Shown piece after piece: positions 4,308-23,768 of a stretch of DNA of 23,768 bases. The stretch is from positions 1 through 23,768 of IMG/VR virus record IMGVR_UViG_3300031857_019986. One strand, written 5' to 3'. The stretch comes from a virus. The translations under genes and the position numbers were made by a program. The notes under the pieces are model-generated. The model saw only the letters and a program-made list of their open reading frames with translations. It was not told the DNA's origin and searched no databases. Positions within the stretch are counted from its first letter, which is position 1. Every line of letters starts with the position of its first letter.

Positions 4308-6089
4308 TTGTATATCAATTATACTATTTTGACGACACAATCAGGCCATTTAAGTATTGAGCAACAAGCTATATCTATTCTTGAAAATTACCAAGGGTCA
4401 AATAACTATATCCTAAAATTAAAAAAACAGATTGAGTCAAATAAAAAGTATGTCCCAACGAGAGCTCAGTGTGATTATATTGTTGACTATAATTCAGTAG
4501 TTCCAAAAGTTGCTAAGAAATGGGTTGATATTGATTCTTATTTTTCACAAAAACTTGTTGAGGACAACCCATTCATTAAAGAACCTGATAAAATCTATGT
4601 TGAAAAGATTTTAGTCGAGAAAGATAAGTCGTATCATATTTGGGGTAAAATTTTTAGTGCAGAAACTATTCACGATTTTTGGATACCAAAAGCTGCCGTT
4701 ATTAAACAACACACTGAAAACTTGGTTGATGTTGATTACACAAAGTATGATAAAAGACCTCCACTCGCTCACCAAAAAGAAGCCATTGAAAAGTTATTGA
4801 AGAACGATAAATTCATTTTAGCTGATGATATGGGACTTGGCAAAACTACCTCGACAGTTATTGCTTCTTTAGAAAGTGGAGCTAAAAAAGTTTTAATCAT
4901 TTGTCCAGCTTCACTTAAAATAAATTGGGAAAGGGAAATCAGAAATTACACAGATAAGTCAATATACATCTGTGAAGGAAAGAAGTTTGAAGATGCGGAT
5001 TACATCATTGTAAACTACGACATTCTTAAAAACTTTCACGACCCAAAAGACAAAGACAATTCTATTATTCTTAATTCAAAGTTTGATTTGGTTATTATAG
5101 ATGAAGCACATTATGTTTCAAATGCTCAAGCTCAGAGAACTAAAATCATAATGGACTTAACCAAGAACATTAAGAAACTTTGGTTACTAACGGGGACACC
5201 TATGACTTCTCGTCCAATGAATTATTACAATATTTTGAAACTTATTGATAGTCCTGTAAGTCAAAACTGGCAAGCATACGCTATCAGATATTGTGCAGGT
5301 TATCAGTTTAGAGTTGGTGGTAAAAAGATTTGGAATGTTACAGGAGCATCCAATTTAGAAGAATTAAGAGAAAGAACTTCTCGTCAGATTTTAAGAAGAT
5401 TAAAAACTGAAGTTTTGGATTTACCTGAAAAAATTATGACCCCCGTTTACCTTCGTTTAAAATCAAGATTGTATGAAGGTCTTATGGGAGAGTATTATGA
5501 TTGGTATAACAACAGACAAGAAGAATCAAAATCACTTTCGGTTCAGTTTACAAAATTGATGAAAGTAAGACAGGTGATTGCTGAGGAAAAAATACCTATC
5601 ACAATTGAACTTGCTGAGAATATTATTGAACAAGGTAAGAAAGTTATTATCTTCAGTAACTTCACCGAACCACTCAAAAAGATACACGAACATTTTGGAA
5701 AAAAATCTGTTTATTTAGACGGTTCAACACCAAAACCATCAAGACAAGACGCTGTGGACAAGTTCCAAGAAAGTGATAAAGTCCAAGTTTTTTGTGGTAA
5801 TATGAAAGCCGCAGGAGTTGGTCTAACATTAACTGCGGGTGAAGCGGTGATTATGAATGATTTATCATTTGTTCCAGCCGAACATTCCCAAGCTGAGGAC
5901 AGAGCGTATAGATATGGCCAAAAAAATTCCGTTTCAATATATTATCCTTTATTTGAAAACACTATTGAAGGCGTAATCTACGACATTCTTTCACACAAGA
6001 AACAGATTATCGGAACTGTAATGGGTGATATAGAAGATAATTCTGTAGATATTGTGGAACAAATACTTAACGAAATCAATAGTAAGTAA
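4308..6089 (+). CDS. SNF2-family (superfamily 2) DNA helicase/translocase
   Basis: This product of about 593 residues carries a complete SNF2 motif set: Walker A DDMGLGKT (173-180), motif Ia IICPASLKINW, Walker B DEAH (265-268), motif III LTGTP (294-298), motif V KAAGVGLTLT (about 500-509) and motif VI QAEDRAYRYGQ (528-538) with the arginine finger. The order and the compact insert-free core resemble SMARCAL1/HARP-type annealing helicases rather than T4 UvsW. Such ATPases track along DNA and remodel forks or D-loops, so a role in replication or recombination is likely. The N-terminal 100 residues are not recognised. No ATG is near: TTG at 4308 is the first plausible start, with another TTG at 4329. 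The upstream sense strand lacks TATTTAT, unlike the structural genes. It lies divergent from the gp14-like gene and 13 bases before the next gene. Confidence 0.9.
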   Translation: MYINYTILTTQSGHLSIEQQAISILENYQGSNNYILKLKKQIESNKKYVPTRAQCDYIVDYNSVVPKVAKKWVDIDSYFSQKLVEDNPFIKEPDKIYVEKILVEKDKSYHIWGKIFSAETIHDFWIPKAAVIKQHTENLVDVDYTKYDKRPPLAHQKEAIEKLLKNDKFILADDMGLGKTTSTVIASLESGAKKVLIICPASLKINWEREIRNYTDKSIYICEGKKFEDADYIIVNYDILKNFHDPKDKDNSIILNSKFDLVIIDEAHYVSNAQAQRTKIIMDLTKNIKKLWLLTGTPMTSRPMNYYNILKLIDSPVSQNWQAYAIRYCAGYQFRVGGKKIWNVTGASNLEELRERTSRQILRRLKTEVLDLPEKIMTPVYLRLKSRLYEGLMGEYYDWYNNRQEESKSLSVQFTKLMKVRQVIAEEKIPITIELAENIIEQGKKVIIFSNFTEPLKKIHEHFGKKSVYLDGSTPKPSRQDAVDKFQESDKVQVFCGNMKAAGVGLTLTAGEAVIMNDLSFVPAEHSQAEDRAYRYGQKNSVSIYYPLFENTIEGVIYDILSHKKQIIGTVMGDIEDNSVDIVEQILNEINSK

Positions 6090-6102: not shown

Positions 6103-7620
6103 ATGAAATCATTAAACATTTTATCAGAGTCATTAGTTAGTCGTATATTGGGTGAAGAAACACAACCCGAAACCAAGTTTTTTATAAACGAAATGAAGAC
6201 CATAGGTATTGATAAGTTACCTTACGGTTACGCATCTTTAAGAAGATTTATTGACCCTGAAACAATGAAGTTTCACTATCAGAAACATTACAAGGGGTAT
6301 GTTAAAAAACTTAATGCAGCTCTTCGTAAGAAAGATTATGGTGATGTTGAACTTGAAAAAATTGTAAAACAAATATCAAAATATAACACAACAATAAGAA
6401 ACAATGCGGGTGGAGCTTTCAATCACGCATTATTTTGGAAGATGTTGTCACCCACACCACAAAAACCAAGTGGTGAAATTTTTGAAAAGATTGTAAAAGA
6501 ATTTGGAACATACCGTAACTTCAAAACTAAATTTGAAGAGGTTTCAAGAAAAAGATTTGGTTCAGGATGGTGTTGGTTAGTTTTGACCGATGGTGGGAGA
6601 TTAAAAGTTATGTCCACATCAAATCAAGATAATCCACTTATGAACATAATAAACAATGGTGGTTTTCCGTTGTTAGGTTTAGATTTGTGGGAACACGCTT
6701 ATTATTTAAAATACCAAAATAAAAGAGACGAATATATTGAAAACTTTTGGGATGTAATTAATTGGAAATTTGTTAATGATTTATACAAAACCAAAACTAA
6801 CAAAAATTTAAAAGAATCCGTTTCTAATAAAAAACTTTTGATGGAAGAATATAATACTTCTGATTTTGCAGATATTTTCAGTAACAACAAAACAGTCCTT
6901 TGGAAATATAGAAAATGTATTGATAACACTTTGAAAAGTGTTATGTCAGATAAGTGGTATGAAAATAACGAATATCATCACGGTTCCGCTTCAGGTATTT
7001 ACAACTATGAAACAGAGGGTCGTTCAGTAATTAATAAATTGAACACAAACTATATTGGGTTTAAAATTTTAGTTGAAGATATTAACATTGTTTTACAAAG
7101 ATTAAATCAACCAAAATTAGAATTCATTGGTGTAACTCCTGAAAAACAAATTCAAGAAATTGATAGATTTTGTTCAGTTTTAAAAACATACGGATTTGGA
7201 AAAAGAATATTCGAAGGTTCCAAAACTTTAGACAAGATTATGTCCCTTTTGAATAGGACTCACAAAAAAGGTGGTGACCTTGAAACATATGTTGCGAACA
7301 AAATTAACAAAGAATTTGGTGAAAAGACCGCAACTCTTATAGGTAGTTTAGGTTCCAAAGAAGATTTTGCGGGAACTGACTTAATAGTAAATTTTGATAA
7401 TAAAATACAATCAGCTCAGGTTAAACCTATTTTGAGTATGGAAGTAATTGAAGGTTTCTATCATATTAAAATCAAAGGTTTTGTTAAGAAGTTTAATACT
7501 GACCTATTAATTTTTTCTAACTTAAACCAACCTGTATATATTTTTAAGAACGAAAATGTTGATTTCAGTTCAAGTTTATTTAAAATCCCAACCGATAATT
7601 TAATTTATACTGTGAATTGA
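6103..7620 (+). CDS. Mn/Fe superoxide dismutase fused to a C-terminal region with PD-(D/E)XK (Mrr-like) nuclease motif
   Basis: This is a 505-residue protein. ATG 6103 is preferred over TTG 6052 because it avoids a 38-base overlap with the helicase gene and has a TATTTAT element just upstream. Residues about 35-225 form a full superoxide dismutase. Metal ligands are His58 (FHYQKHY), His108 (NHALFW), Asp194 and His198 (DLWEHAYYLKYQ). Tyr66 and His62 match the active-site gateway, and the FGSGWCWLV and FWDVINW signatures are present. NNAGG plus Gln175 in NQDNPLM match the manganese-type pattern of E. coli SodA. SOD converts superoxide to peroxide and oxygen. Bacterial SODs are about 200 residues, so some 280 C-terminal residues are extra. 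Within these, Glu384 in a helix, then GTD (Asp426), then QVK (Gln439, Lys441) fit the G-x-D...Q-x-K active site of Mrr-like nucleases. Residues 230-375 are unrecognised. A 33-residue leader precedes the SOD. The SOD call is strong; the nuclease is inference. Confidence 0.85.
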   Translation: MKSLNILSESLVSRILGEETQPETKFFINEMKTIGIDKLPYGYASLRRFIDPETMKFHYQKHYKGYVKKLNAALRKKDYGDVELEKIVKQISKYNTTIRNNAGGAFNHALFWKMLSPTPQKPSGEIFEKIVKEFGTYRNFKTKFEEVSRKRFGSGWCWLVLTDGGRLKVMSTSNQDNPLMNIINNGGFPLLGLDLWEHAYYLKYQNKRDEYIENFWDVINWKFVNDLYKTKTNKNLKESVSNKKLLMEEYNTSDFADIFSNNKTVLWKYRKCIDNTLKSVMSDKWYENNEYHHGSASGIYNYETEGRSVINKLNTNYIGFKILVEDINIVLQRLNQPKLEFIGVTPEKQIQEIDRFCSVLKTYGFGKRIFEGSKTLDKIMSLLNRTHKKGGDLETYVANKINKEFGEKTATLIGSLGSKEDFAGTDLIVNFDNKIQSAQVKPILSMEVIEGFYHIKIKGFVKKFNTDLLIFSNLNQPVYIFKNENVDFSSSLFKIPTDNLIYTVN

Positions 7621-7643: not shown

Positions 7644-8774
7644 ATGAATACAATAATTGCAGAACCTTTCAGAAGTCAACTTTATACAAAAGTAAGACAC
7701 ATACTTGGAGCCCCACTTCGTTCAATCGAATTAGAAGATGAACAAATGGACTCAATATTGGAATTTTCTATTGGGGATTACTCCCAATATGTTCAAGATT
7801 GGTTAATTGAATCCCAATGGACATCATTAAACAATTTGAATTTAGATACTCAATCTTTATCAAGAGCGTTTGTCACTAAAAGTTTAGATTTTGAAAATAG
7901 ATACGCTCAAGCATATTCTAAAATTGTTGGTCTACAATCAAGTCCACTTGGTGATTGGGTTTTGAAGAAGGATTATATAACATTAGTACCTAACCAACAG
8001 ATTTACGAAATCCCAGCAGGTCGTGAGGTTAATGAATTATTATGGTTTACTCCAACCGCACTTAACAATATACTATTTGACCCATGGAGTTTTGGAGCTC
8101 TTGGTGGGTATGGAATGGGTGGTCCGGCGGGGTATTCACAAATGGGTTATACAGGTTCATACTTTATGATGCCAGCATTTGATATGTTACTAAGATTACA
8201 AGAAATTAATATCCAAAGAAGAATTATTGCGGGTGATTTAACTTATAGAATTACAGGTTTACCTAATGGTAAAAAGGCAATTCATTTAATGCAAACACCA
8301 GGTGGAAAATTTGACTTTGGTAACTCATCACTAAGAAACTCTCAAGTTTGGTATTGGTATTACGATGTTGGACCTGAGGACAGAGACGCATGTTTGGCTG
8401 CAAATCCTGACATAATTAAACTTCCGTCTGACGTTCCTATGAACTCTATATCTTGGTCTGACTTAAATGAACCTGCTCAACAGTGGGTTAGAAGATATTT
8501 TGTGGCAGGATGTAAAGAAACATTGGCTAAAGTAAGAGGAAAATATTCAGGTAACTTAAAAACTCCTGATTCAGAATTAACAATGGATTACGCATCATTG
8601 GCAACTGAAGGTAAAGATGAAAAAACAAAACTAATTGAAGAGTTAATTGGTGCAGATGGTAGATTAACAAGATTAAGACCTGAAAAGATTATGGAACGTG
8701 AAGCGTTATTAGCTGAAAATCTAAATAAACAAATGAAGTTCAGAGCGTTCCCAAGAAACATGTATGTAATTTAA
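7644..8774 (+). CDS. 13: Neck protein, T4 gp13-like
   Basis: This 376-residue protein has an ATG at 7644. Near the N-terminus, VRHILGAPLRSIELEDEQM with a following FSIGDYSQY matches T4 gp13 'ILRRLGAPIINVELTPDQI...LELYGEY'. Near the C-terminus, QQWVRRYFVAGCKETLAKVR, then GKYSGNL and an EKTKLIEELIG helix match gp13 '[26 protein letters not shown]....LIEEARLEKEALREEL'. The centre (about 150-175) is Gly/Tyr/Met-rich, as in T4. gp13 binds gp14 and seals the packaged head for tail joining. T4 gp13 is about 309 residues, so this version is somewhat longer. It is followed after five bases by a small gene, probably in the same transcript. Its separation from the gp14-like gene by the helicase and SOD genes, on the opposite strand, departs from the T4 arrangement. 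Confidence 0.8.
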   Translation: MNTIIAEPFRSQLYTKVRHILGAPLRSIELEDEQMDSILEFSIGDYSQYVQDWLIESQWTSLNNLNLDTQSLSRAFVTKSLDFENRYAQAYSKIVGLQSSPLGDWVLKKDYITLVPNQQIYEIPAGREVNELLWFTPTALNNILFDPWSFGALGGYGMGGPAGYSQMGYTGSYFMMPAFDMLLRLQEINIQRRIIAGDLTYRITGLPNGKKAIHLMQTPGGKFDFGNSSLRNSQVWYWYYDVGPEDRDACLAANPDIIKLPSDVPMNSISWSDLNEPAQQWVRRYFVAGCKETLAKVRGKYSGNLKTPDSELTMDYASLATEGKDEKTKLIEELIGADGRLTRLRPEKIMEREALLAENLNKQMKFRAFPRNMYVI

Positions 8775-13219: not shown

Positions 13220-14890
13220 TTAGCATTCTTTCCTTAAATCACTTGAATAATGTTCGAATCTATCGTGTTCGGTGGGTGTCATTAGAAGAATACCCGGATT
13301 TAATTTACCCTGAACTGTCTGTTGGAAGTTGTGAGACATGATTGTTTGTTCAAAAGGGGATTGAAATCTTGTTTCTAAATAACATTTGTAACTTCCTTTT
13401 TTTGAAAGTATAATTGGCCAGTTACATATGTAGATTTGACCCGATGCGTATGGTATTCCCTTATGTGATTTTATTTCTTTGAATTGTGTTCTTGGAGCAT
13501 TTGGGTCTAAACCCATTTGTGGTAATCTTTTGTTTTTTGGCCAATGTTGTTCTCTGAAATGTTGCGGCACGTTATACCACGACCACTGTGTACTATTGTC
13601 CCCGTAAAACTCTGTAAAGTTTAATTTTAGAAAATCAAAGTTTTCTTTTTGTATAATCTCCAAAGTTTTATAATAAAAATTATCTGAATATCTTGGAAAT
13701 CCATTTTTACAAACCGATTGTTCGGTAGTATAAAAGAACATGTCGTCTTCAAAGAACAACATATAATCCAAACCTGTTTCTTCAAAATGTTCGGCAATCC
13801 ATTGTCTACCTCCTGTAATCCCCAAATTATCTTTTTTAATATGTTCAAAATTATATTCTTCACATATTTTAATATACTCATCTGTTGTAGATAAATCTGT
13901 TGAGTTATTTAATAAAAATTTTTGTGTTTTATCAATATAATTTTTATCAAATCTTAACATTGAATCAATTAAAGTTCTGAATTGATTTGGTGAATTGAAT
14001 GTTATAACATATAAAGCAACTTTATTAATGTCAGTGTCTTGTTCTATAACCTTACATTCATTCTTTTTAATTAAACTATCATTTTTTAAATCTTCAAAAA
14101 ACTTTCCAAACAAACCATTTGATTCAATTTCAAAATAGTTTATTAGTTCAGGAAACTTATAAACCATAATCGAAAATATTGATTCTTCAGTACCCATGAA
14201 TCCTTGTGATAAAGTTTCATTCATCAAGTTGTAATATTCCCCATTCATTTCTGCGATAGTATCTTTTGGTCCACCGAAGAAACCTCCACGAGCAACTTTT
14301 TTTACATCATCACCAGCCCAATCATTAATTTCAGGGTATGAAAAACCATGTATTTCGTTGTTGGCATCGTATGGGAAACAAACGAATGTGAACTTATTCA
14401 CATATTTACTAAACTTATCCAAAACTTTGTCGTGTGTAAAATAACCAGGATGAACGGTATTTGAAAGACCTGCGTCAATCCAAAACAAATATTCTGAATT
14501 AAACTTGTCAAAAATCCTTGCGTCGTTTAACAAAAACATTTTTGACATTACAAGTGGATTATAATTTTCTAACCTACCTTGTGTCGATTCTTTTAACCAA
14601 GATGATTGATTATACCAATCAGGGTTAATTCTAATTTTTTGTATTTTATCGTAGAAATCATTTTTAATGAACCAACTTTTATCTCTTCTAATAAATTGGG
14701 TATTTGATTGTTCCCGTCTTTCCCAAACAAATTTTTCCAATTCTTCTTCACCAAAAATTATTAAGTTTTCTTCAACCTTCAAAAGTTGTTCAAACTTTTC
14801 CAAGTAATGTGAAAAGGAGCGTGACCAACCTTCTTCCAAGTTTTCCCTACCTATATTCCATAAACCTGTAACTAATGTAATATTACTCAT
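13220..14890 (-). CDS. Two-domain glycosyltransferase: HtrL/YibB-like N-terminus plus GT2-like C-terminus
   Basis: This 556-residue protein has an ATG at 14890 overlapping the preceding stop (ATGA). Residues 1-270 match the HtrL/YibB family: an ITLVTGLWNIGREN opening, PLVMSKMFLLNDA and the acidic motif FWIDAGLS (136-143), then RGGFFGG. Residues about 291-556 look like a separate GT-A domain: VALYVITFNSPNQFRTLID (291-309), a GITGGRQWIAE segment (357-367) and an acidic FFEDDMFF motif (379-386) suited to binding a metal-nucleotide-sugar. Such enzymes transfer sugars to glycans; donor and acceptor are unknown. A second, stand-alone HtrL/YibB-like gene lies two genes upstream, so the family is used twice. 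It is the last gene of the glycan operon. The fold calls rest on motif spacing and are fairly firm; the reaction is inferred. Confidence 0.75.
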   Translation of the reverse strand: MSNITLVTGLWNIGRENLEEGWSRSFSHYLEKFEQLLKVEENLIIFGEEELEKFVWERREQSNTQFIRRDKSWFIKNDFYDKIQKIRINPDWYNQSSWLKESTQGRLENYNPLVMSKMFLLNDARIFDKFNSEYLFWIDAGLSNTVHPGYFTHDKVLDKFSKYVNKFTFVCFPYDANNEIHGFSYPEINDWAGDDVKKVARGGFFGGPKDTIAEMNGEYYNLMNETLSQGFMGTEESIFSIMVYKFPELINYFEIESNGLFGKFFEDLKNDSLIKKNECKVIEQDTDINKVALYVITFNSPNQFRTLIDSMLRFDKNYIDKTQKFLLNNSTDLSTTDEYIKICEEYNFEHIKKDNLGITGGRQWIAEHFEETGLDYMLFFEDDMFFYTTEQSVCKNGFPRYSDNFYYKTLEIIQKENFDFLKLNFTEFYGDNSTQWSWYNVPQHFREQHWPKNKRLPQMGLDPNAPRTQFKEIKSHKGIPYASGQIYICNWPIILSKKGSYKCYLETRFQSPFEQTIMSHNFQQTVQGKLNPGILLMTPTEHDRFEHYSSDLRKEC

Positions 14891-15450
14891 TCCGTATCTC
14901 TTACTTTATAGATTATATAATCAACAAACTCACTTTCAAACATTTGTCCGATTTCTTCATAAAAAATCACATCGCCTAACACATCCTCTTGAAACATAGG
15001 TAAATTGTGTGTGTTTGGAATCACTCCCATGCATTTACCTACATTACCTCTTGTGAAATCTTTTAATCTCCAATTAATATCACCATACCAATTGTGTTTG
15101 AATATGTATAGTTTATTTTTTTCTTTAACTGTTTCTTTAATTACCTTAAATGCATCTTCGGTGTATCTGTCATCATCATCAGCAAACATTATAAAATCAC
15201 CTTTTAATGAATTAATATTTTCATTAAGTAATGGATGTCCATACTTCCACTTTCTTTCACCATTGTTTCTTATATGATTAACTTTGAAGTTAAACTCATA
15301 TCTTGATAAAACTTTTGAGACAAACTCGTGATTGATGTCAGATATGATTGTAAAAATATCTGTCGATTCTAATTGGTCTTTAAATGATTCAATTAATCGT
15401 GGTAATGTTTCACGACCGATAGAAGTACAAACAATGTTATAACTAAACAT
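14887..15450 (-). CDS. Family 2 (GT-A) glycosyltransferase, compact
   Basis: This 187-residue protein has an ATG at 15450 and overlaps both neighbours by 4-8 bases. The N-terminal strand YNIVCTSIGRETLPRLIESF starts a Rossmann-like GT-A core. An HIRNNGERKWKYGHPLLN segment follows, and the acidic motif FADDDDRY (89-96) is the metal/nucleotide-sugar site of GT2 enzymes. It is short, carrying the donor-binding half and a brief acceptor part, with no membrane anchor, so it probably acts in the cytoplasm. The tight overlaps mean it is translated with its neighbours. Substrate is unknown. Confidence 0.78.
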   Translation of the reverse strand: MFSYNIVCTSIGRETLPRLIESFKDQLESTDIFTIISDINHEFVSKVLSRYEFNFKVNHIRNNGERKWKYGHPLLNENINSLKGDFIMFADDDDRYTEDAFKVIKETVKEKNKLYIFKHNWYGDINWRLKDFTRGNVGKCMGVIPNTHNLPMFQEDVLGDVIFYEEIGQMFESEFVDYIIYKVRDTE

Positions 15451-16297
15451 AACATTTCTCCCTCACATATTTTGACTCATCATAAATGTCTAAAATGTCT
15501 AAAAATGATTTCTGTAAATCTAACCAATCACCAAATTCAAAAGCGTAACATTTATCTTTATTCTGTCCTGTGATAGCTGTAAGAACCTCTTGTTCACTAA
15601 TTAACTGATTGTGTTTTTCTAAATAACTTGTAAAAATGTCTAAATAACCCTCAAACAAATGTCTAACTATTTCTGATTTACCACCAAATAAACATCCTGG
15701 AACAACCTTTAATTCAACTCCAAATAGTTCATTAAACCTTGCAACCATTTCATAATTCATAACAATAGAATTACCTTTAAGGTGAATAAAACCGTGTTGA
15801 ATAATTTTTTCAGTTACCTTATTCAAAAAGTTTTTTGAGTTAATAAGTGGAGCCATATAATCTCTCCATCCGTCATGACAAGATGTTCCAATAAGTCCGG
15901 CATCAATCCAAACAACATTTTCACAATCATATGACTCATCAATTAAAAACTTTAATTTATTTAATACAACCTCCAAATAATTGTTTACACAATAAATCCT
16001 ATCGTAGTTCATCCCACCTGATAATTCTTGTATTCTAACTCTATCAATCAATTCACATGTTTCAGATGTATTTAATTCTTTGAATTTAAACTCAATATTA
16101 GGTTGATTAAACTCATATTGTAAATTGAATTTTTCATACGAATTTTTATCAGTATAAATTACGTACTGATATTCAGGAAATATAATGTTCTTAATTGTTG
16201 CAACAAGTAATGGAAAGTTTTTATATCTTTCACCGTTTCTTTCGGGAACATAATTTAATTCATAAATTGCCGAAACTATTTTAGTACCATTTGTCAT
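15443..16297 (-). CDS. HtrL/YibB-like glycosyltransferase-family protein
   Basis: This 284-residue protein has an ATG at 16297, which overlaps the upstream gene by 17 bases. Its opening (KIVSAIYELNYVPERNGERY), a YVIYTDKNS strand, an acidic VVWIDAGLIG motif (128-137) and a later VPGCLFGGKSE segment match the HtrL/YibB pattern, also present in the fused gene downstream. The WIDAG acidic pair is the likely sugar-nucleotide/metal site. YibB is encoded beside lipopolysaccharide core genes in enterobacteria, so surface-glycan work is reasonable. Actual reaction and substrate are unknown. Confidence 0.65.
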   Translation of the reverse strand: MTNGTKIVSAIYELNYVPERNGERYKNFPLLVATIKNIIFPEYQYVIYTDKNSYEKFNLQYEFNQPNIEFKFKELNTSETCELIDRVRIQELSGGMNYDRIYCVNNYLEVVLNKLKFLIDESYDCENVVWIDAGLIGTSCHDGWRDYMAPLINSKNFLNKVTEKIIQHGFIHLKGNSIVMNYEMVARFNELFGVELKVVPGCLFGGKSEIVRHLFEGYLDIFTSYLEKHNQLISEQEVLTAITGQNKDKCYAFEFGDWLDLQKSFLDILDIYDESKYVREKCYV

Positions 16298-16991
16298 GTT
16301 GAGCGTAAATAATATTTAATGATTTATTTGAGTTATTACCAAGTTCAACACCATTATACAATGCGGAAAAACACATTTCATCAATATTTCCAGCAGGTAT
16401 GTTTCTTAAACCATCAGTTTTTTTATATTCGATACATTTGTCCCATGTATCCAAAAAATGGGTAAACTTTTCCATTTCCATATCAATGTATTGAATACAA
16501 TCTTCGGGCATAATCCCTAACTTTTTTTTATCGGTTTCAAAACCAAAAACATTTTCATAGTGAAGTAATCTTCTACCAAGTTCACTATTAGATTGGATTT
16601 GTTCAGAAAAATTATATGTTACAGGGCCTGAAATACAATTTTGAATAAATGAATTAAGAATATTTTCTTCATTGAATAATGAAGGATTAACTCTCATATC
16701 AGCATCCACCAAAATAACTTTTGTAAATCCCAAATCAACCGACGCCCTAACCGAATATCTTTTTACTGAAAAATCAAAGTCATAATAATTTGTTTGATAA
16801 TCCAAATATTCAGAATTGTAATTTTTAATATCCACCGATTTAACAAAGTCAGCTTTAGTTATTTTATCACAATCATCAGTTAAAACTACCAAATGTGGTT
16901 TGAAATCATGATTTAAAATATCGTTAATGAAACGATTAACTTGCTGGTAATATCTTTCACCAAAACAAAATGTTGCAAATGTAAAACTCAT
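16281..16991 (-). CDS. DxD-motif glycosyltransferase-like protein
   Basis: This 236-residue protein has an ATG at 16991, just two bases after the upstream stop. It begins SFTFATFCFGERYYQQVNRF and has an HLVVLTDD strand and the key KVILVDADMRVNPSLF segment, where Asp96-Ala-Asp98 is a DxD motif binding metal and nucleotide sugar. The order (N-terminal strand with 'FGxxY', VLTDD, then the DxD strand) is like GT8/GT6-type retaining transferases. Near the C-terminus, IPAGNIDEMCFSALYN may be acceptor-side. No transmembrane segment is present. The glycosyltransferase call is sound by motif; family and sugar are not settled. Confidence 0.65.
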   Translation of the reverse strand: MSFTFATFCFGERYYQQVNRFINDILNHDFKPHLVVLTDDCDKITKADFVKSVDIKNYNSEYLDYQTNYYDFDFSVKRYSVRASVDLGFTKVILVDADMRVNPSLFNEENILNSFIQNCISGPVTYNFSEQIQSNSELGRRLLHYENVFGFETDKKKLGIMPEDCIQYIDMEMEKFTHFLDTWDKCIEYKKTDGLRNIPAGNIDEMCFSALYNGVELGNNSNKSLNIIYAQHDKWY

Positions 16992-16993
16992 AA

Positions 16994-18238
16994 TTATAAA
17001 TTTCCTGTTATTCTTTCACACCAATCTTTTGATTCCGAGTGTGGCCAAACAACCCAATATTTAGGTTTTTTATCCGTATTAAACTGTCTCCATACTTTAC
17101 AATAACCATCAGGGTCATTCATCATTCTTTGGATTTCATTTCTATCCGCATCTTGTCTGAAAATAGTTTCATCTTTTTCATCATGAAATGCAACCACCCA
17201 AAAATCATAATCTTTTTCAGGAACTTGATGAAACCCAATATCAATACAATGTTTGAATAATGATGTAAATGACTTTAACCATTCTTCCTCCGACTCAAAA
17301 TTATATGGGTTAGGTGGATAACCTTTATCTACGGTATATTGCTGAACAGCTCTTTTTGAAAATAAAAGTCCTGAATATTTCTCATACTCTCTTAAACTTC
17401 TTACCTTACCAAAACCATATTTACCGTGGTTCATTTCCTCTTCACCATCCATACCGAACAATGAACGATTTTTTTTGTGACAGTAATTGTTTTTATCTAC
17501 CCATTGTGAATCATCATCCCATTGTTTAGTACGACCCTTTCTTGTGTACTCGTGCCAAATCATAACTTTATGAGGATGAAATAAATCATAACCGTGAGTA
17601 TACGCTCTTGCGGCAATAGATATTTCTTCACCATGAAAATAAAATTCAGGGTCGTGTTGAACTTCTTTAGCAAACTTACCTAATGTAAAACAGAAGTGGG
17701 CTGAATAAAATCTTGCTTTGATAGGTTCAGTTAGATTCTGCCAACCAGGTATTGTTTCAGGTAAAAAGAAAACCGCACCTTCAGGAATGAATCTATCAAA
17801 AACCATTCTCCATGGTTCTTGTGTCCTACCTTGTGGGTCATTATCAGGGTCAAAAGATGAAACATATCCTGTTAGTAATGGTTTTTTATATCCCTTCTTT
17901 TGAAGGTCTTTGACCATGTTTATCATATCAACATCCCAATTAGGAGCAAACCTCATATGTGAGTCGATTTGGAGGGTATATTGTTCTTTATTATATAACT
18001 GTTGGATTTGATTTCTTGCCCAACATGCTCCTTTTGATTCAGTATATAAAATATTTAATATTCTAAATCGTTCATCATTTTCATATTCGGATAAATTGTC
18101 AAATGTATCATCAGGATGAAACTGACGAGCAATAGCAAAAACCAGATTTTCTGGTTTTTTTGCGTTTTCTAAAGCCGACTGAATTGTTGGTATTAATTGT
18201 GGGTCTCGATAAGATGCAATTTGAATAAAGATTTTCAT
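16994..18238 (-). CDS. GlcNAc-type glycosyltransferase (GT60 / PF11397-like)
   Basis: This 414-residue protein uses ATG 18238, which gives MKIFIQIASYRDPQLIPTIQ; a TTG six bases upstream is possible but less likely. The opening IASYRDPQL, an ESKGACWARNQIQQLY segment, LQIDSHMRFAPNWD (acidic donor site) and FYFHGEEISIAARAYTHGYD followed by HP are the hallmarks of PF11397 enzymes, typified by eukaryotic Skp1 hydroxyproline GlcNAc-transferase (GT60) and found in bacteria and phages. The family adds GlcNAc or related sugars to proteins or glycans. The C-terminal 130 residues are extra and unrecognised, with two WVVxxH-type strands (DFWVVAFHDE, KYWVVWPHSE) that look like an internal repeat. Codons near the 5' end include a terminator-like hairpin (see 18137-18161). 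Confidence 0.85.
   Translation of the reverse strand: MKIFIQIASYRDPQLIPTIQSALENAKKPENLVFAIARQFHPDDTFDNLSEYENDERFRILNILYTESKGACWARNQIQQLYNKEQYTLQIDSHMRFAPNWDVDMINMVKDLQKKGYKKPLLTGYVSSFDPDNDPQGRTQEPWRMVFDRFIPEGAVFFLPETIPGWQNLTEPIKARFYSAHFCFTLGKFAKEVQHDPEFYFHGEEISIAARAYTHGYDLFHPHKVMIWHEYTRKGRTKQWDDDSQWVDKNNYCHKKNRSLFGMDGEEEMNHGKYGFGKVRSLREYEKYSGLLFSKRAVQQYTVDKGYPPNPYNFESEEEWLKSFTSLFKHCIDIGFHQVPEKDYDFWVVAFHDEKDETIFRQDADRNEIQRMMNDPDGYCKVWRQFNTDKKPKYWVVWPHSESKDWCERITGNL
18137..18161 (-). terminator. Terminator-like hairpin inside the GT60-type gene
   Basis: On the minus strand, AACCAGA, a short A loop and TCTGGTT form a stem followed by a T run (TTTTTG in total). It lies about 80-100 bases inside the coding region. 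It could reduce read-through into the distal operon. AT-rich coding sequence could also produce it by chance. Confidence 0.3.
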
Positions 18239-18272
18239 ATTCAAATCTTAATTAAAAGAACAAAAAGATAAA

Positions 18273-18716
18273 TTATTTCTTTTTAATTTTTACATACTTA
18301 TACCACAATCTTTCGTGTAAGAAATAGATTATAGGTTTTAACGTTAATTCACCAATACCCAATAAAGAAGACATTTGTAATGATACACCACAAGATAAAG
18401 CAACTACAACAGTGGTAAGAGTTCCAAGTAATCTATATGATATTGTTTTTAATATATGACGAAGTAATACCGTTTCTTCCTTAACAGTTTGGACATATGC
18501 AACATTATCTTTGATTGTACAATGTCCTTCACAACTGATATGCCATTTATATTCATTAAGTTCAGGCATCCAATCCTGTGTTGTAAAAGTATGTCCGTCA
18601 ATAATAATATTTGAAACCAAGATTTCATTACCATTTTCAATTAATCTCCATCTTGTGTCTTCTGATGTTGAATGAACATTGAATCTAATTTGAAACTTTT
18701 TGATTTTCTTTTTCAT
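18273..18716 (-). CDS. DUF2061 membrane protein with soluble N-terminal domain
   Basis: This 147-residue protein has an ATG at 18716 overlapping the nucleotidyltransferase stop. Residues 86-145 match DUF2061 (PF09834): RHILKTISYRLLGTLTTVVV, a second hydrophobic stretch, then PIIYFLHERLWYKY. This predicts two transmembrane helices and a basic tail (KIKKK). DUF2061 proteins are known in bacteria beside or fused to sulfate-activation genes, which matches the adjacent CysC-like kinase and nucleotidyltransferase here. Residues 1-80 (KKKIKKFQIRFNVHSTSEDT, then WRLIENG and EYKWHISCEGHCTIKDN) form a separate small basic, beta-rich domain I do not recognise. A supporting membrane role, perhaps in sulfate or sulfated-product handling, is inferred from context. 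Confidence 0.75.
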   Translation of the reverse strand: MKKKIKKFQIRFNVHSTSEDTRWRLIENGNEILVSNIIIDGHTFTTQDWMPELNEYKWHISCEGHCTIKDNVAYVQTVKEETVLLRHILKTISYRLLGTLTTVVVALSCGVSLQMSSLLGIGELTLKPIIYFLHERLWYKYVKIKKK

Positions 18717-19111
18717 AATTTACCTTGGGCTCTTAATTCTTCTCTAATTTTTGTGGCTGAAATATCATGTATTTCTTGTGGTGGTATTCTCTCTATAATA
18801 TTATAACCAACACCTCGTCCGAATTCAATAGAACAGATATCGGGAATTATCATGACTTTTATCTTATCACCCATTTCAGAATAATGTTCTTCGATATTTT
18901 TCTTAACCTCTTCAGCGGTAAATGGATTTTTTTCATCAGGTTGAATATCCCTGATACAGATTAAGACATTCTTACCTTCATCTAACGCTTCTTGAAATAA
19001 CGATTGATGTCCTTTGTGTAAAGGTTGCCATCTTCCGACAAACATGGCATACTGACCATCCTTAGCAGGTAAAGATGATTCTACGTGAATTTTTTTATCC
19101 CAAGTACTCAT
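18713..19111 (-). CDS. HxGH-family nucleotidyltransferase (adenylyl/cytidylyltransferase-like)
   Basis: This 132-residue protein has an ATG at 19111 overlapping the CysC stop by four bases. FVGRWQPLHKGHQ holds the HxGH motif (His32, His35) that binds the ATP/CTP phosphates. ISATKIREEL (117-126) is the ISSTxxR-type signature closing the active site. The enzyme transfers a nucleotide from an NTP to a phosphate or sulfate-like acceptor; the fold includes NMN adenylyltransferase and ATP sulfurylase. Being next to APS kinase and a sulfotransferase, a minimal sulfate adenylyltransferase is an attractive guess, but canonical ATP sulfurylases are about three times longer, and the residues giving sulfate specificity cannot be judged here. 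NAD or sugar-nucleotide metabolism is the alternative. Confidence 0.8.
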   Translation of the reverse strand: MSTWDKKIHVESSLPAKDGQYAMFVGRWQPLHKGHQSLFQEALDEGKNVLICIRDIQPDEKNPFTAEEVKKNIEEHYSEMGDKIKVMIIPDICSIEFGRGVGYNIIERIPPQEIHDISATKIREELRAQGKL

Positions 19112-19536
19112 TTTTTATTAAAAGGTATTAATTCAAGACATTCGTCTATTGTTTTATTTGTTGTATCAATATCAATGAAGTTTTCAGTTGGAGCTTCGTA
19201 TTCCTTAACAAAGTTTTGTTCTCTCCCTCTAATTTCAGAAGTATGAACATAAATTTCACACACTTCATTTGTTTCTTTGAGTGAGTCCCTCATACTTTTA
19301 TAAGGAGCCACAACTGAAATAACAACTGTAAATCCTTTATGGTCTAAAAACCTTGCCAAGTCCAATACAGATTGTATGTTTTTAACTCTACCTTCTGCAG
19401 AGTAATCAAAATTTTGGAATAGTTCTCTTAAACCATCTCCGTCAACATTAATACAAGTGTCAGAACACTTTTCAATTAAAGCATTCGCTAATGTTGTCTT
19501 ACCAGCACCTGGCTGACCTGTGAACCAATAAATCAT
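19108..19536 (-). CDS. cysC: Adenylylsulfate (APS) kinase, CysC-like
   Basis: This 142-residue protein has an ATG at 19536 overlapping the sulfotransferase stop by four bases. It has the Walker A motif GQPGAGKTT (7-15), NVDGDGLRELF (30-40, matching the CysC 'LDGDxxR' APS site), GRVKNIQ (matching 'R..NI'), VVISVVAPYKSMRD (matching the CysC 'xISPxxxxR' segment) and VKEYEAP (matching 'YEAPxxxE'). The enzyme phosphorylates adenylylsulfate to PAPS, the sulfate donor. It is shorter than bacterial CysC (about 200 residues) but keeps the core. The neighbouring sulfotransferase would consume PAPS, so the two form a donor-making and donor-using pair. It probably acts in the cytoplasm. Confidence 0.85.
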   Translation of the reverse strand: MIYWFTGQPGAGKTTLANALIEKCSDTCINVDGDGLRELFQNFDYSAEGRVKNIQSVLDLARFLDHKGFTVVISVVAPYKSMRDSLKETNEVCEIYVHTSEIRGREQNFVKEYEAPTENFIDIDTTNKTIDECLELIPFNKK

Positions 19537-20357
19537 ATGTTTTTCTGATAATTAAAAATTTGATAGAACCATTGATAGTTGTTGTAAATCCAATCACAAA
19601 CATCTTCACCTAAAACTTTAACCGCACTTGATGGAGTAAGTTCCAAACTCTTTCTAATAGTGTGGTCACCAAACATTCCATAGATTTCATCGTCTTCTTT
19701 GGTCACTTGTTCAATGTTGTCAAAATTATGTTCGTAGAATGGTATTTCCAAAAAGTTATAAATCTTTAACATAGTTGCTTCAGGATACAAACATAAATCT
19801 TCATATCTCACAAATAACATTTTTTCATTTATTCCTTGTCTAAAAACTTCACCCAATCTTTCGATAGCCATACCCACAGGTTGTGAGTTGGCCCAAATAT
19901 CAATTCTTTTAGGTGTTGTAGTACCTTTTAACTCGGCGTGATTAACAATACCCATATCTTTGTACTGACTCTTACGGAAGTTTTTTTCCATAGAACAGAA
20001 GATGTCCCTTAAATCTCTCACCATACAGATAATCTTTGGTTCAGGGAATACTTCATTCAAGAAACCATAGTGAACACCCCATCCTCTACTTTTATCCACA
20101 ACATATTTCTTATCAGTAATTGCGGTAAAGAAACCTTCAACACCTTGTTTACAAAAAGATAAGTAACCTTTTTTCATCAATTCAGTGTCTTGAGCTTTGA
20201 ATTCAGGTGACGACGAGTAATTAGCTCTCGCCCCATAGATTAATTCCAATACACCACTTGTAGGTGTAGCATAAATGTCAGGGTTTTGAGCTAAAATGTT
20301 TTGTAACATTGTACTGCCAGCTCTTGGTAGCGAACTTTGAAAGAATAGTTTTTCCAT
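19533..20357 (-). CDS. PAPS-dependent sulfotransferase
   Basis: This 274-residue protein has an ATG at 20357 that shares a base with the SET gene stop. At the N-terminus, FFQSSLPRAGSTMLQNIL (5-22) is the 5'-phosphosulfate loop that grips PAPS. KIICMVRDLRDIFCSMEKNF (108-127) is the 3'-phosphate motif with Arg114 and Ser122. FVRYEDLCLYP and later YNFLEIPF match the sulfotransferase-fold core. These enzymes move a sulfuryl group from PAPS to a hydroxyl or amine on a sugar, peptide or small molecule. Its position, directly upstream of APS kinase in a glycosyltransferase operon, makes a glycan or tyrosine acceptor likely, probably on the phage fibre or host surface. The acceptor is not visible in the sequence. 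There is no signal peptide. Confidence 0.9.
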   Translation of the reverse strand: MEKLFFQSSLPRAGSTMLQNILAQNPDIYATPTSGVLELIYGARANYSSSPEFKAQDTELMKKGYLSFCKQGVEGFFTAITDKKYVVDKSRGWGVHYGFLNEVFPEPKIICMVRDLRDIFCSMEKNFRKSQYKDMGIVNHAELKGTTTPKRIDIWANSQPVGMAIERLGEVFRQGINEKMLFVRYEDLCLYPEATMLKIYNFLEIPFYEHNFDNIEQVTKEDDEIYGMFGDHTIRKSLELTPSSAVKVLGEDVCDWIYNNYQWFYQIFNYQKNI

Positions 20358-20743
20358 TATATAATTGTTTTAATAAATTTCCAGTAGTCAGGACCTCCGT
20401 ATGAAGTACAGATTTCTTCACCAATTTCAATATCACGATTTGCGACGAAATAGTAAAGAGCCGAATTAGAATCACAGGTCCAAAATGCATTATTATTTTC
20501 ACTATGATTGTATATACAACCATAACCAAGAGGTATTGCGAAATGAGTTGGTTGGTGTCCACAAGGATATGAAAATCTATATTTCAAAAGTATATCATTC
20601 ATATCACCCAAATCTGTTCTGAAAAAAATCGCATAACATGTTTCGATGATTTCATCCTTTTTAATTTTTTGTGAAGCAAAAACCCCCAATCCATGAATGG
20701 GGGATGCTTTTACTTCTATCTTTTGTGGAATAGGTATATTCAT
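20357..20743 (-). CDS. SET-domain protein (lysine methyltransferase-like)
   Basis: This 128-residue protein has an ATG at 20743, two bases after the GT9-like stop. It is nearly a bare SET domain: SPIHGLGVFASQKIKKDEII (14-33) is the GxG S-adenosylmethionine strand, YNHSENNNA (78-86) holds the NHS motif of the pseudoknot, and GEEICTSYG (108-116) carries the catalytic tyrosine Tyr115. SET enzymes methylate protein lysines. Pre-SET and post-SET zinc regions are absent, as in small bacterial and viral SET proteins. In this operon it might methylate a structural protein or a host protein; the substrate is unknown. A strong terminator-like hairpin lies within codons 12-20. Confidence 0.85.
   Translation of the reverse strand: MNIPIPQKIEVKASPIHGLGVFASQKIKKDEIIETCYAIFFRTDLGDMNDILLKYRFSYPCGHQPTHFAIPLGYGCIYNHSENNNAFWTCDSNSALYYFVANRDIEIGEEICTSYGGPDYWKFIKTII
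20678..20703 (-). terminator. Terminator-like hairpin in the 5' part of the SET gene
   Basis: On the minus strand, CCCCCA...TGGGGG is a 6-bp GC-rich stem (extended by two inner pairs), followed at once by TTTTT, 40-65 bases inside the coding region. The structure is as good as a normal intrinsic terminator and is G/C-rich in an AT-rich gene. It could act as an attenuator between the fibre/GT9 genes and the distal operon. Activity is inferred. Confidence 0.4.
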
Positions 20744-21665: not shown

Positions 21666-23768
21666 TTATGGGACAATATTCAAAACACCAGCATTACTCC
21701 AAACTGAACCTGAAGGAAGTCCTGCGGATGAAGTTGGAATTGTTTTGATTGACAAGTTATTTACGAATGTTGTACAAACTCTGTCCACCGAAATATTGGC
21801 CCCGACAATAAATGAAGTTGTTCCCGTTGATGCAATTGTATTCCCACTTCCCGCTAATACACCACTAAATGCCGCACTTACAGTGTTTCCACTACCACCA
21901 CCTATAAATGAACAATCGGCACTAACAACATTACGAAGACCTATAAATATTCCTGATGAACAACCAGTAGTATTGTTAAAAAATCCATTACCCACAATTG
22001 AATAATAACTACTTGCAGTATTACTGGACCCACCACCTATAAATGACCTACTTCCACTTGCGGTGTTTTGACGACCTCCACTAATGGTTGAATAAGGACC
22101 ACTTGCGGTGTTAAAAAATCCACCACCCACGGTTGAGACAAAACCATTTGCGGTATTAGTGGTACCTCCGGCAATTGTTGATGTAGAACCTGTTGCAGTG
22201 TTATTTCTACCACCACCAATAAACGAGTAACCTCCACTTGAGGTGTTTTTATATCCACCGCTTATGGTTGACCTACAACCACCGGCGGTATTTTGACGAC
22301 CACCACTTATTGTTGATGTTTCACCACTTGCTATGTTTTGACGACCTCCACCTATAAATGAACCTGTACCACTTGCGGTGTTTATAATACCCCCACTTAC
22401 AGTGGAAGTATCACCATTAGCAATATTAGCACTCCCTCCACCTACGGTTGAGTATTGACTACTTGCGGTATTACTTCGTCCACCACCTATGGTTGAGCAA
22501 GCTCCACCCGCAATGTTTCTATATCCACCTGATATTGTTGATGTCAGACCTGATGTAATATTACAGCATCCTCCACCAATAAATGAACATGCTCCACCAG
22601 CGATATTTAGACAACCACCAACAACTGATGATGTATTACCACTTGCAACATTGGTTCTACCCCCCACTATTGTAGAATAGTTACCACTTGCAGTATTAGT
22701 GAATCCACCACCAACAAAAGACGAAATCCCACACGCAATGTTTCCACACCCACCAACAACTGTATCTCTCAAATTTAATGCAATATTTGCCCCTCCACTA
22801 CCGATAAATGAAAAATTACCCGTTGCTGTATTTGAAAAACCACCACTTATTGTTGAGTAAACACCATTGGATGTATTACCACTACCACCACCAATAAATG
22901 AACACGCTCCACCAGCAACGTTACAACTACCACCAACAACTGATGATGTTGTTCCTGTAACTCTATTTTGAAATCCTCCACCAATAAATGTGTAGGTACA
23001 ATTCGAGATTAATGTTGGAGCAACTGTGAAAGTACAAGACGATAATACAAATGTTCCCCCTAACGTATTATTACCAACACCTCCAGCTATTACTGAACCT
23101 GTCGCTAAACACCCACTTGTTGAGTTACAAATACTATTACAAAAACCACCACCAATTACTGAATAAACACCACATGCTGCATTACATCGTCCACCACTAA
23201 CCGTTGAGCCGGTAACATTTGAGCGGTTATTTTGACCTCCTCCAACAGTTGAATGATAACCACTAGAAGTATTAGAGTAACCCCCACTAATTGTTGAATT
23301 ACATCCTGATGCGAAATTAGCTCGTCCACCACCTACTGTTGACGCAGTGCAACTCGCAGTATTTTGCATACCTCCTCCGACTGTTGTATAACTAGCACTT
23401 GCGGTGTTTGAACGTCCTCCACCTATTGTAACCCAAGTAAAATTGGCTACGTTTGATTGTCCCCCTCCAATTACTGACGAAAGACTAGAATTATTGTTAA
23501 ATCTACCCCCACCTATGTTTGAATAGGAGGCACTTATGGTATTAGAATATCCTCCACTTACGGTTGAATAACAACCACTTACGGTATTAATCCTCCCACC
23601 ACTTATTGTTGAATAAACTCCACTTGATATGTTTTTGCAACCTCCACCGATAAATGAACATGCACCAACAGCGGTATTACAATATCCACCACTAATTGTT
23701 GATGTATTACCACTTGCAATGTTTTGTCGTCCCCCACCGATAAATGAACAAGCTCCTCCCGCAATGTT
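21666..23768 (-). CDS. Long YadA-head-like repeat fibre protein, N-terminus cut by window edge
   Basis: The frame is open from the right edge (no start seen) to TAA at 21666-21668: 700 residues. An internal Met at 23369 is not the start, since the same repeats continue upstream of it. About 36 units of 15 residues follow a consensus N-T-A-S-G-x-x-S-T-I-S-G-G-x-x. This is the pattern of the left-handed beta-roll head of trimeric YadA/Hep_Hag-type adhesins. Two unit-breaking inserts of about 22 and 35 residues lie around 22975-23160. The protein ends with a different domain, NNLSIKTIPTSSAGLPSGSV, then WSNAGVLNIVP, a C-terminal style seen in phage fibres. Cysteines are frequent at repeat positions 6, 7, 14 and 15. 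It most likely forms a trimeric fibre or appendage that contacts the host. It is followed at once by the glycan operon, making it a plausible glycosylation target. Confidence 0.85.
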   Translation of the reverse strand, partial: NIAGGACSFIGGGRQNIASGNTSTISGGYCNTAVGACSFIGGGCKNISSGVYSTISGGRINTVSGCYSTVSGGYSNTISASYSNIGGGRFNNNSSLSSVIGGGQSNVANFTWVTIGGGRSNTASASYTTVGGGMQNTASCTASTVGGGRANFASGCNSTISGGYSNTSSGYHSTVGGGQNNRSNVTGSTVSGGRCNAACGVYSVIGGGFCNSICNSTSGCLATGSVIAGGVGNNTLGGTFVLSSCTFTVAPTLISNCTYTFIGGGFQNRVTGTTSSVVGGSCNVAGGACSFIGGGSGNTSNGVYSTISGGFSNTATGNFSFIGSGGANIALNLRDTVVGGCGNIACGISSFVGGGFTNTASGNYSTIVGGRTNVASGNTSSVVGGCLNIAGGACSFIGGGCCNITSGLTSTISGGYRNIAGGACSTIGGGRSNTASSQYSTVGGGSANIANGDTSTVSGGIINTASGTGSFIGGGRQNIASGETSTISGGRQNTAGGCRSTISGGYKNTSSGGYSFIGGGRNNTATGSTSTIAGGTTNTANGFVSTVGGGFFNTASGPYSTISGGRQNTASGSRSFIGGGSSNTASSYYSIVGNGFFNNTTGCSSGIFIGLRNVVSADCSFIGGGSGNTVSAAFSGVLAGSGNTIASTGTTSFIVGANISVDRVCTTFVNNLSIKTIPTSSAGLPSGSVWSNAGVLNIVP
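21820..23768 (-). repeat. In-frame 45-bp coding repeats (15-aa units)
   Basis: Repeats of 45 bases run through the fibre gene, seen on the plus strand as recurring CCACC(A/T)ATAAATGAAC and ACTTGCGGTGTT-like blocks. They stay in frame with no spacer or frameshift. Units have diverged at the third codon positions and at the two variable residues, so they are old but still similar enough to allow unequal recombination and length change. Confidence 0.9.

Follow-up and report, generated by a model that had tools for sequence, protein, structure and literature searches.

In phage T4 the prohead protease gp21 removes small N-terminal peptides from the internal proteins (PMC9958956), and in Alt the same protease cuts at ITE-6 and LTE-619 (PMC5694885). 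An algal virus, the chlorovirus PBCV-1, packages a superoxide dismutase (SOD) in its virion, and this enzyme has been linked to lower superoxide during infection (PMC7019647). Fe/Mn SOD genes are also found in phage genomes, i.e. in PA5oct-like phages, Vibrio phage 2.275.O and Bacteriophage sp. MW462191; these align with the protein described here over the SOD part only, and the C-terminal domain is present in none of them.

The gene studied here lies in a viral DNA of 23,768 nucleotides (IMG/VR record IMGVR_UViG_3300031857_019986), hereafter the window. Its product of 505 aa consists of a leader of 30 aa, a SOD domain (36-226), a disordered linker and a C-terminal domain (C-domain) of 255 aa. 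These features and the two conserved neighbours are distributed as follows:

4308..6089, + strand: SNF2/UvsW-like helicase gene, conserved upstream neighbour (Pfam, PHROG 62, synteny)
6103..7620, + strand: SOD-nuclease fusion gene, 505 aa, kept by homologues as a single ORF end to end
6103..6192, + strand: N-terminal leader MKSLNILSESLVSRILGEETQPETKFFINE, aa 1-30, a putative targeting sequence or propeptide ending in a conserved (I/L)xE
6208..6780, + strand: Mn-type superoxide dismutase domain, aa 36-226 (Pfam, PDB phmmer, Foldseek, 88/88 conservation)
6793..6852, + strand: disordered linker, aa 231-250, with two conserved (L/I)xE (E238 at 6814-6816, E248 at 6844-6846)
6853..7617, + strand: C-domain, aa 251-505, a helical region followed by a PD-(D/E)XK-like fold (AF2, Foldseek, invariant columns)
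7282-7284, 7378-7380, 7417-7419 and 7423-7425, + strand: C-domain key residues E394, D426, Q439 and K441
7644..8774, + strand: gp13-like neck / head-tail adaptor gene, conserved downstream neighbour (PHROG 211 at 5.6e-8, synteny)

The fusion of SOD and C-domain is genuine. IMG/VR was scanned with the whole protein as query, and the best 80 of 592 relatives were retained. Dozens of independent contigs, drawn from many metagenomes, encode the full 1-505 span as one ORF, at 47-100% identity; nearly all relatives examined carry the complete 505 residues in one ORF, on contigs that reach 322 kb, and the gene is cut in two contigs (L038 and L108). The UniProt entry A0A6J5L953 (501 aa), labelled only 'superoxide dismutase', is the same fusion, with 76% identity in the C-domain (BFVD). 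The initial annotation had proposed a search for the same fusion in other phage genomes, and this search succeeded; the accompanying statement that no such fusion was known does not hold for the databases, which already contained it in A0A6J5L953, and our literature search found no paper on a SOD-nuclease fusion. That two genes were joined by an assembly or frameshift artefact has a negligible probability: we found no point in its favour, and it is ruled out by the recurrence of the identical single ORF across these contigs and in UniProt.

The SOD assignment of the initial annotation was confirmed. Pfam recognizes Sod_Fe_N (2.7e-22) and Sod_Fe_C (2.5e-40) over residues 36-226, both above the cut-off. 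The metal ligands are H58, H108, D194 and H198, the second shell comprises Y66, Q175, H62 and E197, and the Gly104/Gln175 arrangement of the Mn type accompanies the three His and one Asp ligands. The six residues listed beforehand (His58, His108, Asp194, His198, Tyr66 and Gln175) were correctly placed and are invariant, every ligand being unchanged in 88/88 unique full-length homologues. The top PDB match is a Sphingobacterium MnSOD (1.2e-59, phmmer), and Foldseek also supports SOD. By domain and ligand criteria the protein thus belongs to the Mn-type Fe/Mn SODs, with a predicted dismutase activity. Most of the closest bacterial SODs belong to Bacteroidota. In a maximum-likelihood tree with 80 bacterial SODs, the 17 viral SODs form one clade (100/100), so that the viral SOD was likely acquired once; since this clade sits among Bacteroidota SODs, the lineage probably infects Bacteroidota.

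Outside the SOD region, the protein has no match in Pfam, PHROGs or NCBIfam. The C-domain was modelled with AF2 from 27 homologues (pLDDT 91.4, pTM 0.83). Compared with the PDB by Foldseek, this model retrieves first the PD-(D/E)XK homing endonuclease I-Ssp6803I (probability 1.00), then, as next plausible and weaker matches, archaeal Hjc resolvases (probability up to 0.75); the E-values are modest, the best being 4.8e-3. I-Ssp6803I also has a QxK motif. In BFVD the C-domain matches viral PD-(D/E)XK proteins, and the same fold is found inside a marine phage protein of 1113 aa. The invariant residues of the aligned set include E394, D421, D426, Q439 and K441, and we infer from the fold match alone that E394, D426, Q439 and K441 cluster in space. 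A PD-(D/E)XK nuclease fold is thus well supported by the model, and DNA cleavage is a predicted activity. The initial annotation had proposed an Mrr-type PD-(D/E)XK nuclease: the PD-(D/E)XK part stands, on the model, the Foldseek matches to I-Ssp6803I and Hjc and the invariant residues, whereas the Mrr part is abandoned, as no Mrr_cat or other Mrr Pfam match occurs among the 27 members. GTD426 and QVK (439-441) had been placed correctly; position 384, given as Glu, is occupied by Asn, the invariant acidic residue of the helix being Glu394. Nothing supports the further suggestion of a toxin or defence system gated by metal or redox state, PADLOC giving no match for the window protein. No C-domain was found in bacterial genomes. 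Among annotated phages it occurs only in a 735-kb uncultured phage, as a standalone ORF of 290 aa which keeps E, D and QxK and is devoid of SOD; its own close relatives did not turn up.

The gene order around the fusion does not vary: it follows the helicase and is followed, in some cases after extra ORFs, by the gp13-like neck gene, a small ORF and the DNA polymerase. A second scan took the neck gene as query and was therefore blind to SOD in its selection. The SOD protein was present upstream of the neck gene in 76/76 new contigs, broken into two ORFs in one of them (L343). It is thus well supported that the SOD fusion behaves as a core gene of the lineage, and also that this lineage consists of widespread, uncultured, large T4-like lake phages. 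By capsid protein the nearest sequenced records, at 41-46% identity, are an uncultured phage, Microcystis phage Mel-JY01 and Flavobacterium phage immuto; the latter, an isolate (capsid 41%), has gp23 and gp21, and within a 49-kb stretch of it none of the annotated genes is a SOD fusion. Peptidase_S77, the gp21-like prohead protease, was detected in 5/8 partial genomes of relatives, the window itself being a fragment, and it co-occurs with gp23 in genomes of relatives. The minus strand of the window also contains glycosyltransferase-like genes (GlcNAc family, HtrL/TAGT-like) within the structural region (13220-18244), adjoining nucleotidyltransferase, APS kinase-like and sulfotransferase genes that may form a phage sulfation cassette (18713-20357), a SET-domain protein, possibly a lysine methyltransferase (20357-20743), and an adhesin-like repeat protein of 567 aa with a weak UspA1-type repeat match, possibly a fibre (21666-23369).

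Conservation is unevenly distributed in the non-enzymatic segments. In the leader, E30 and I/L28 are kept in 88/88 sequences and the remaining columns average 50%; in the non-redundant set, (I/L)28xE30 is present in 46/46 sequences. In the linker, where pLDDT is 33-43 around residues 231-250, E238 reaches 98% of the 46 non-redundant sequences, with L/I/V/M at 236, and E248 reaches 91%. Apart from (L/I)xE the inter-domain segments are poorly conserved; (L/I)xE is itself a weak motif, and its comparison with neighbouring proteins is unbalanced as these are far more conserved. The leader ends in a gp21-type site (motif from PMC5694885), as T4-type head-internal proteins do. In the gp23 of the relatives, LINE|A occupies the place at which T4 gp23 is cut, in each of the five genomes inspected.

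The fusion leader also resembles tags found on other ORFs of a relative of 242 kb (G001, L194-L205), whose N-termini are enriched in leader-type motifs (32/225 ORFs, against 14 +/- 3.5 in shuffles). Otherwise unrelated ORFs of this genome, e.g. 222631-223966, 230498-231506 and 237236-239205, carry the tag MKKIIRLTESDLxRIVKRVIKE or MKYIITESQ, possibly a head-targeting tag. A tblastn search of annotated phages with the tag peptide gave no matches, the query being too short, and we found no paper in which this peptide is printed. Beside the SOD gene, two contigs (L063:11481-12554 and L207:6105-7058) encode another tagged protein, which has a PD-(D/E)XK-like QVKP motif; a homologue of it, recognized by eye, is located between gp21 and gp22 in another relative (G003).

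The 88 unique full-length proteins fall into three types: type A with the nuclease (74), type B with an unrelated domain of about 320 aa (13), and type C (1, L339) with a short tail after SOD. The nuclease tetrad is kept wherever the nuclease domain occurs. In the SOD tree types B and C group together as one clade; both carry an additional N-terminal HExxH domain, which has no Pfam match. In this subclade the same (L/I)xE segment stands between the HExxH domain and SOD, and again between SOD and the unrelated domain. Profile comparison revealed no relation between the payloads of types A and B, and sequence searches gave no identification of the type B fold; type B retains E, D and SCK with a spacing that could be nuclease-like, as a pattern only. 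In the type A relative G001, homologues of the metallopeptidase and of domain B are genes in their own right, one of which starts with MKKKKLINE, and the L339 tail domain matches nearby standalone ORFs starting with MKIIISES or MRIIITEN. These sequences show that the payload is interchangeable, the subclade having a putative HExxH metallopeptidase in front of SOD and an unrelated domain behind it. Since the leader is internal in types B and C, an N-terminal targeting role is impossible there, and a cleavable linker fits better than a pure targeting signal. In L339 (1483-4961), the fusion is flanked by four tagged ORFs, three of them alike and the fourth more distant, whose body also makes up the C-terminal tail of the fusion. 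In a 634-kb phage (LR745206, L367:2897-6115), a homologue of the type B domain is found within a row of genes that start with MKYLxxYxE, which resembles the T4 capsid targeting sequence.

We infer, with a probability of about 0.55, that the protein is an enzyme polyprotein packaged in the head, processed by the prohead protease and ejected with the DNA. The precursor would be made alongside the late structural genes and brought by its leader into the prohead core, where a gp21-like protease would cut after (L/I)xE at E30, E238 and E248, removing the leader and splitting SOD from the C-terminal enzyme. Both enzymes would be retained inside the capsid and accompany the DNA into the cell. There, the MnSOD would remove superoxide, and it may also protect packaged DNA in the free virion; the PD-(D/E)XK enzyme would cleave or resolve host, competitor or branched phage DNA. 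This virion-carried reading is indirectly supported by the conserved (L/I)xE linkers, the shared class of N-terminal tag and the interchangeable payloads. Several points count against the proposal: a nuclease enclosed together with the phage DNA has to be kept inactive, in G001 the fusion gene is located about 40 kb away from the gp21/gp23 cluster, the (L/I)xE motif is weak and its comparison with neighbouring proteins unbalanced, the leader of types B and C is internal, and the Foldseek E-values against the PDB are modest.

The protein could instead be an uncut bifunctional enzyme of the cytoplasm, in which SOD shields the replication machinery or the cell itself, phage DNA is resolved or trimmed by the nuclease (in the manner of Hjc or endonuclease VII), and (L/I)xE are helix caps. 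The UvsW/SNF2-like helicase adjoining the gene, the nearby DNA polymerase and the relatedness of the nuclease fold to Holliday junction resolvases all agree with such a role; we nevertheless consider it rather unlikely, because it leaves unexplained the conservation of (L/I)xE in low-confidence linkers, the exchange of payloads at these linkers and a tag common to many ORFs. A structural protein of the neck, tail or capsid, with SOD and nuclease folds serving mainly as scaffolds, would account for the constant location next to the gp13-like neck gene. This is improbable given that all SOD catalytic residues are invariant (88/88) and that the tetrad is retained with the nuclease domain; the swapping of payloads would also be odd for a structural interface.

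The head-packaged reading has a broader form, which we put forward tentatively, at slightly short of even odds: a phage head would carry a multi-enzyme polyprotein cleaved by the prohead protease, with modules swapped at conserved cleavage linkers, constituting both a virion-delivered antioxidant defence and a modular system of ejection cargo, in variants with SOD and nuclease or, in the subclade, with metallopeptidase, SOD and another enzyme. If true, phages would supply the cell with superoxide control as soon as infection begins, the code of tag and cleavable linker would make many unknown phage proteins recognizable by sequence alone as head cargo, and a natural set of cargo modules for head delivery would be available.

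Compared with known systems, the fusion shares all ligands and second-shell residues with the Fe/Mn SOD family (Mn type, Bacteroidota branch), and differs from it by the leader, the C-terminal enzyme and a long stem branch. With I-Ssp6803I and archaeal Hjc, the C-domain has in common the fold found by Foldseek and an invariant set E...D...QxK; it adds an N-terminal helical region and has no detectable sequence similarity to them. The SOD of PBCV-1 (A245R) is alike in proposed role, a virion-delivered enzyme lowering superoxide in the infected cell, and serves as a functional precedent, but it is an unfused Cu/Zn enzyme of an algal virus whereas the present one is of Mn type and from a phage. 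Like T4 IPI-III and Alt, which have a capsid targeting sequence and are processed by gp21, the fusion has a leader ending in (I/L)xE; its internal (L/I)xE are comparable to the internal/C-terminal (L)xE site of Alt, and a gp21-like protease and gp23 are likewise present in genomes of its relatives. Its leader is longer than those of T4 and different in sequence, and its cargo, in contrast to the T4 internal proteins, would be SOD and nuclease, with a metallopeptidase in the subclade, i.e. several enzymes per chain.
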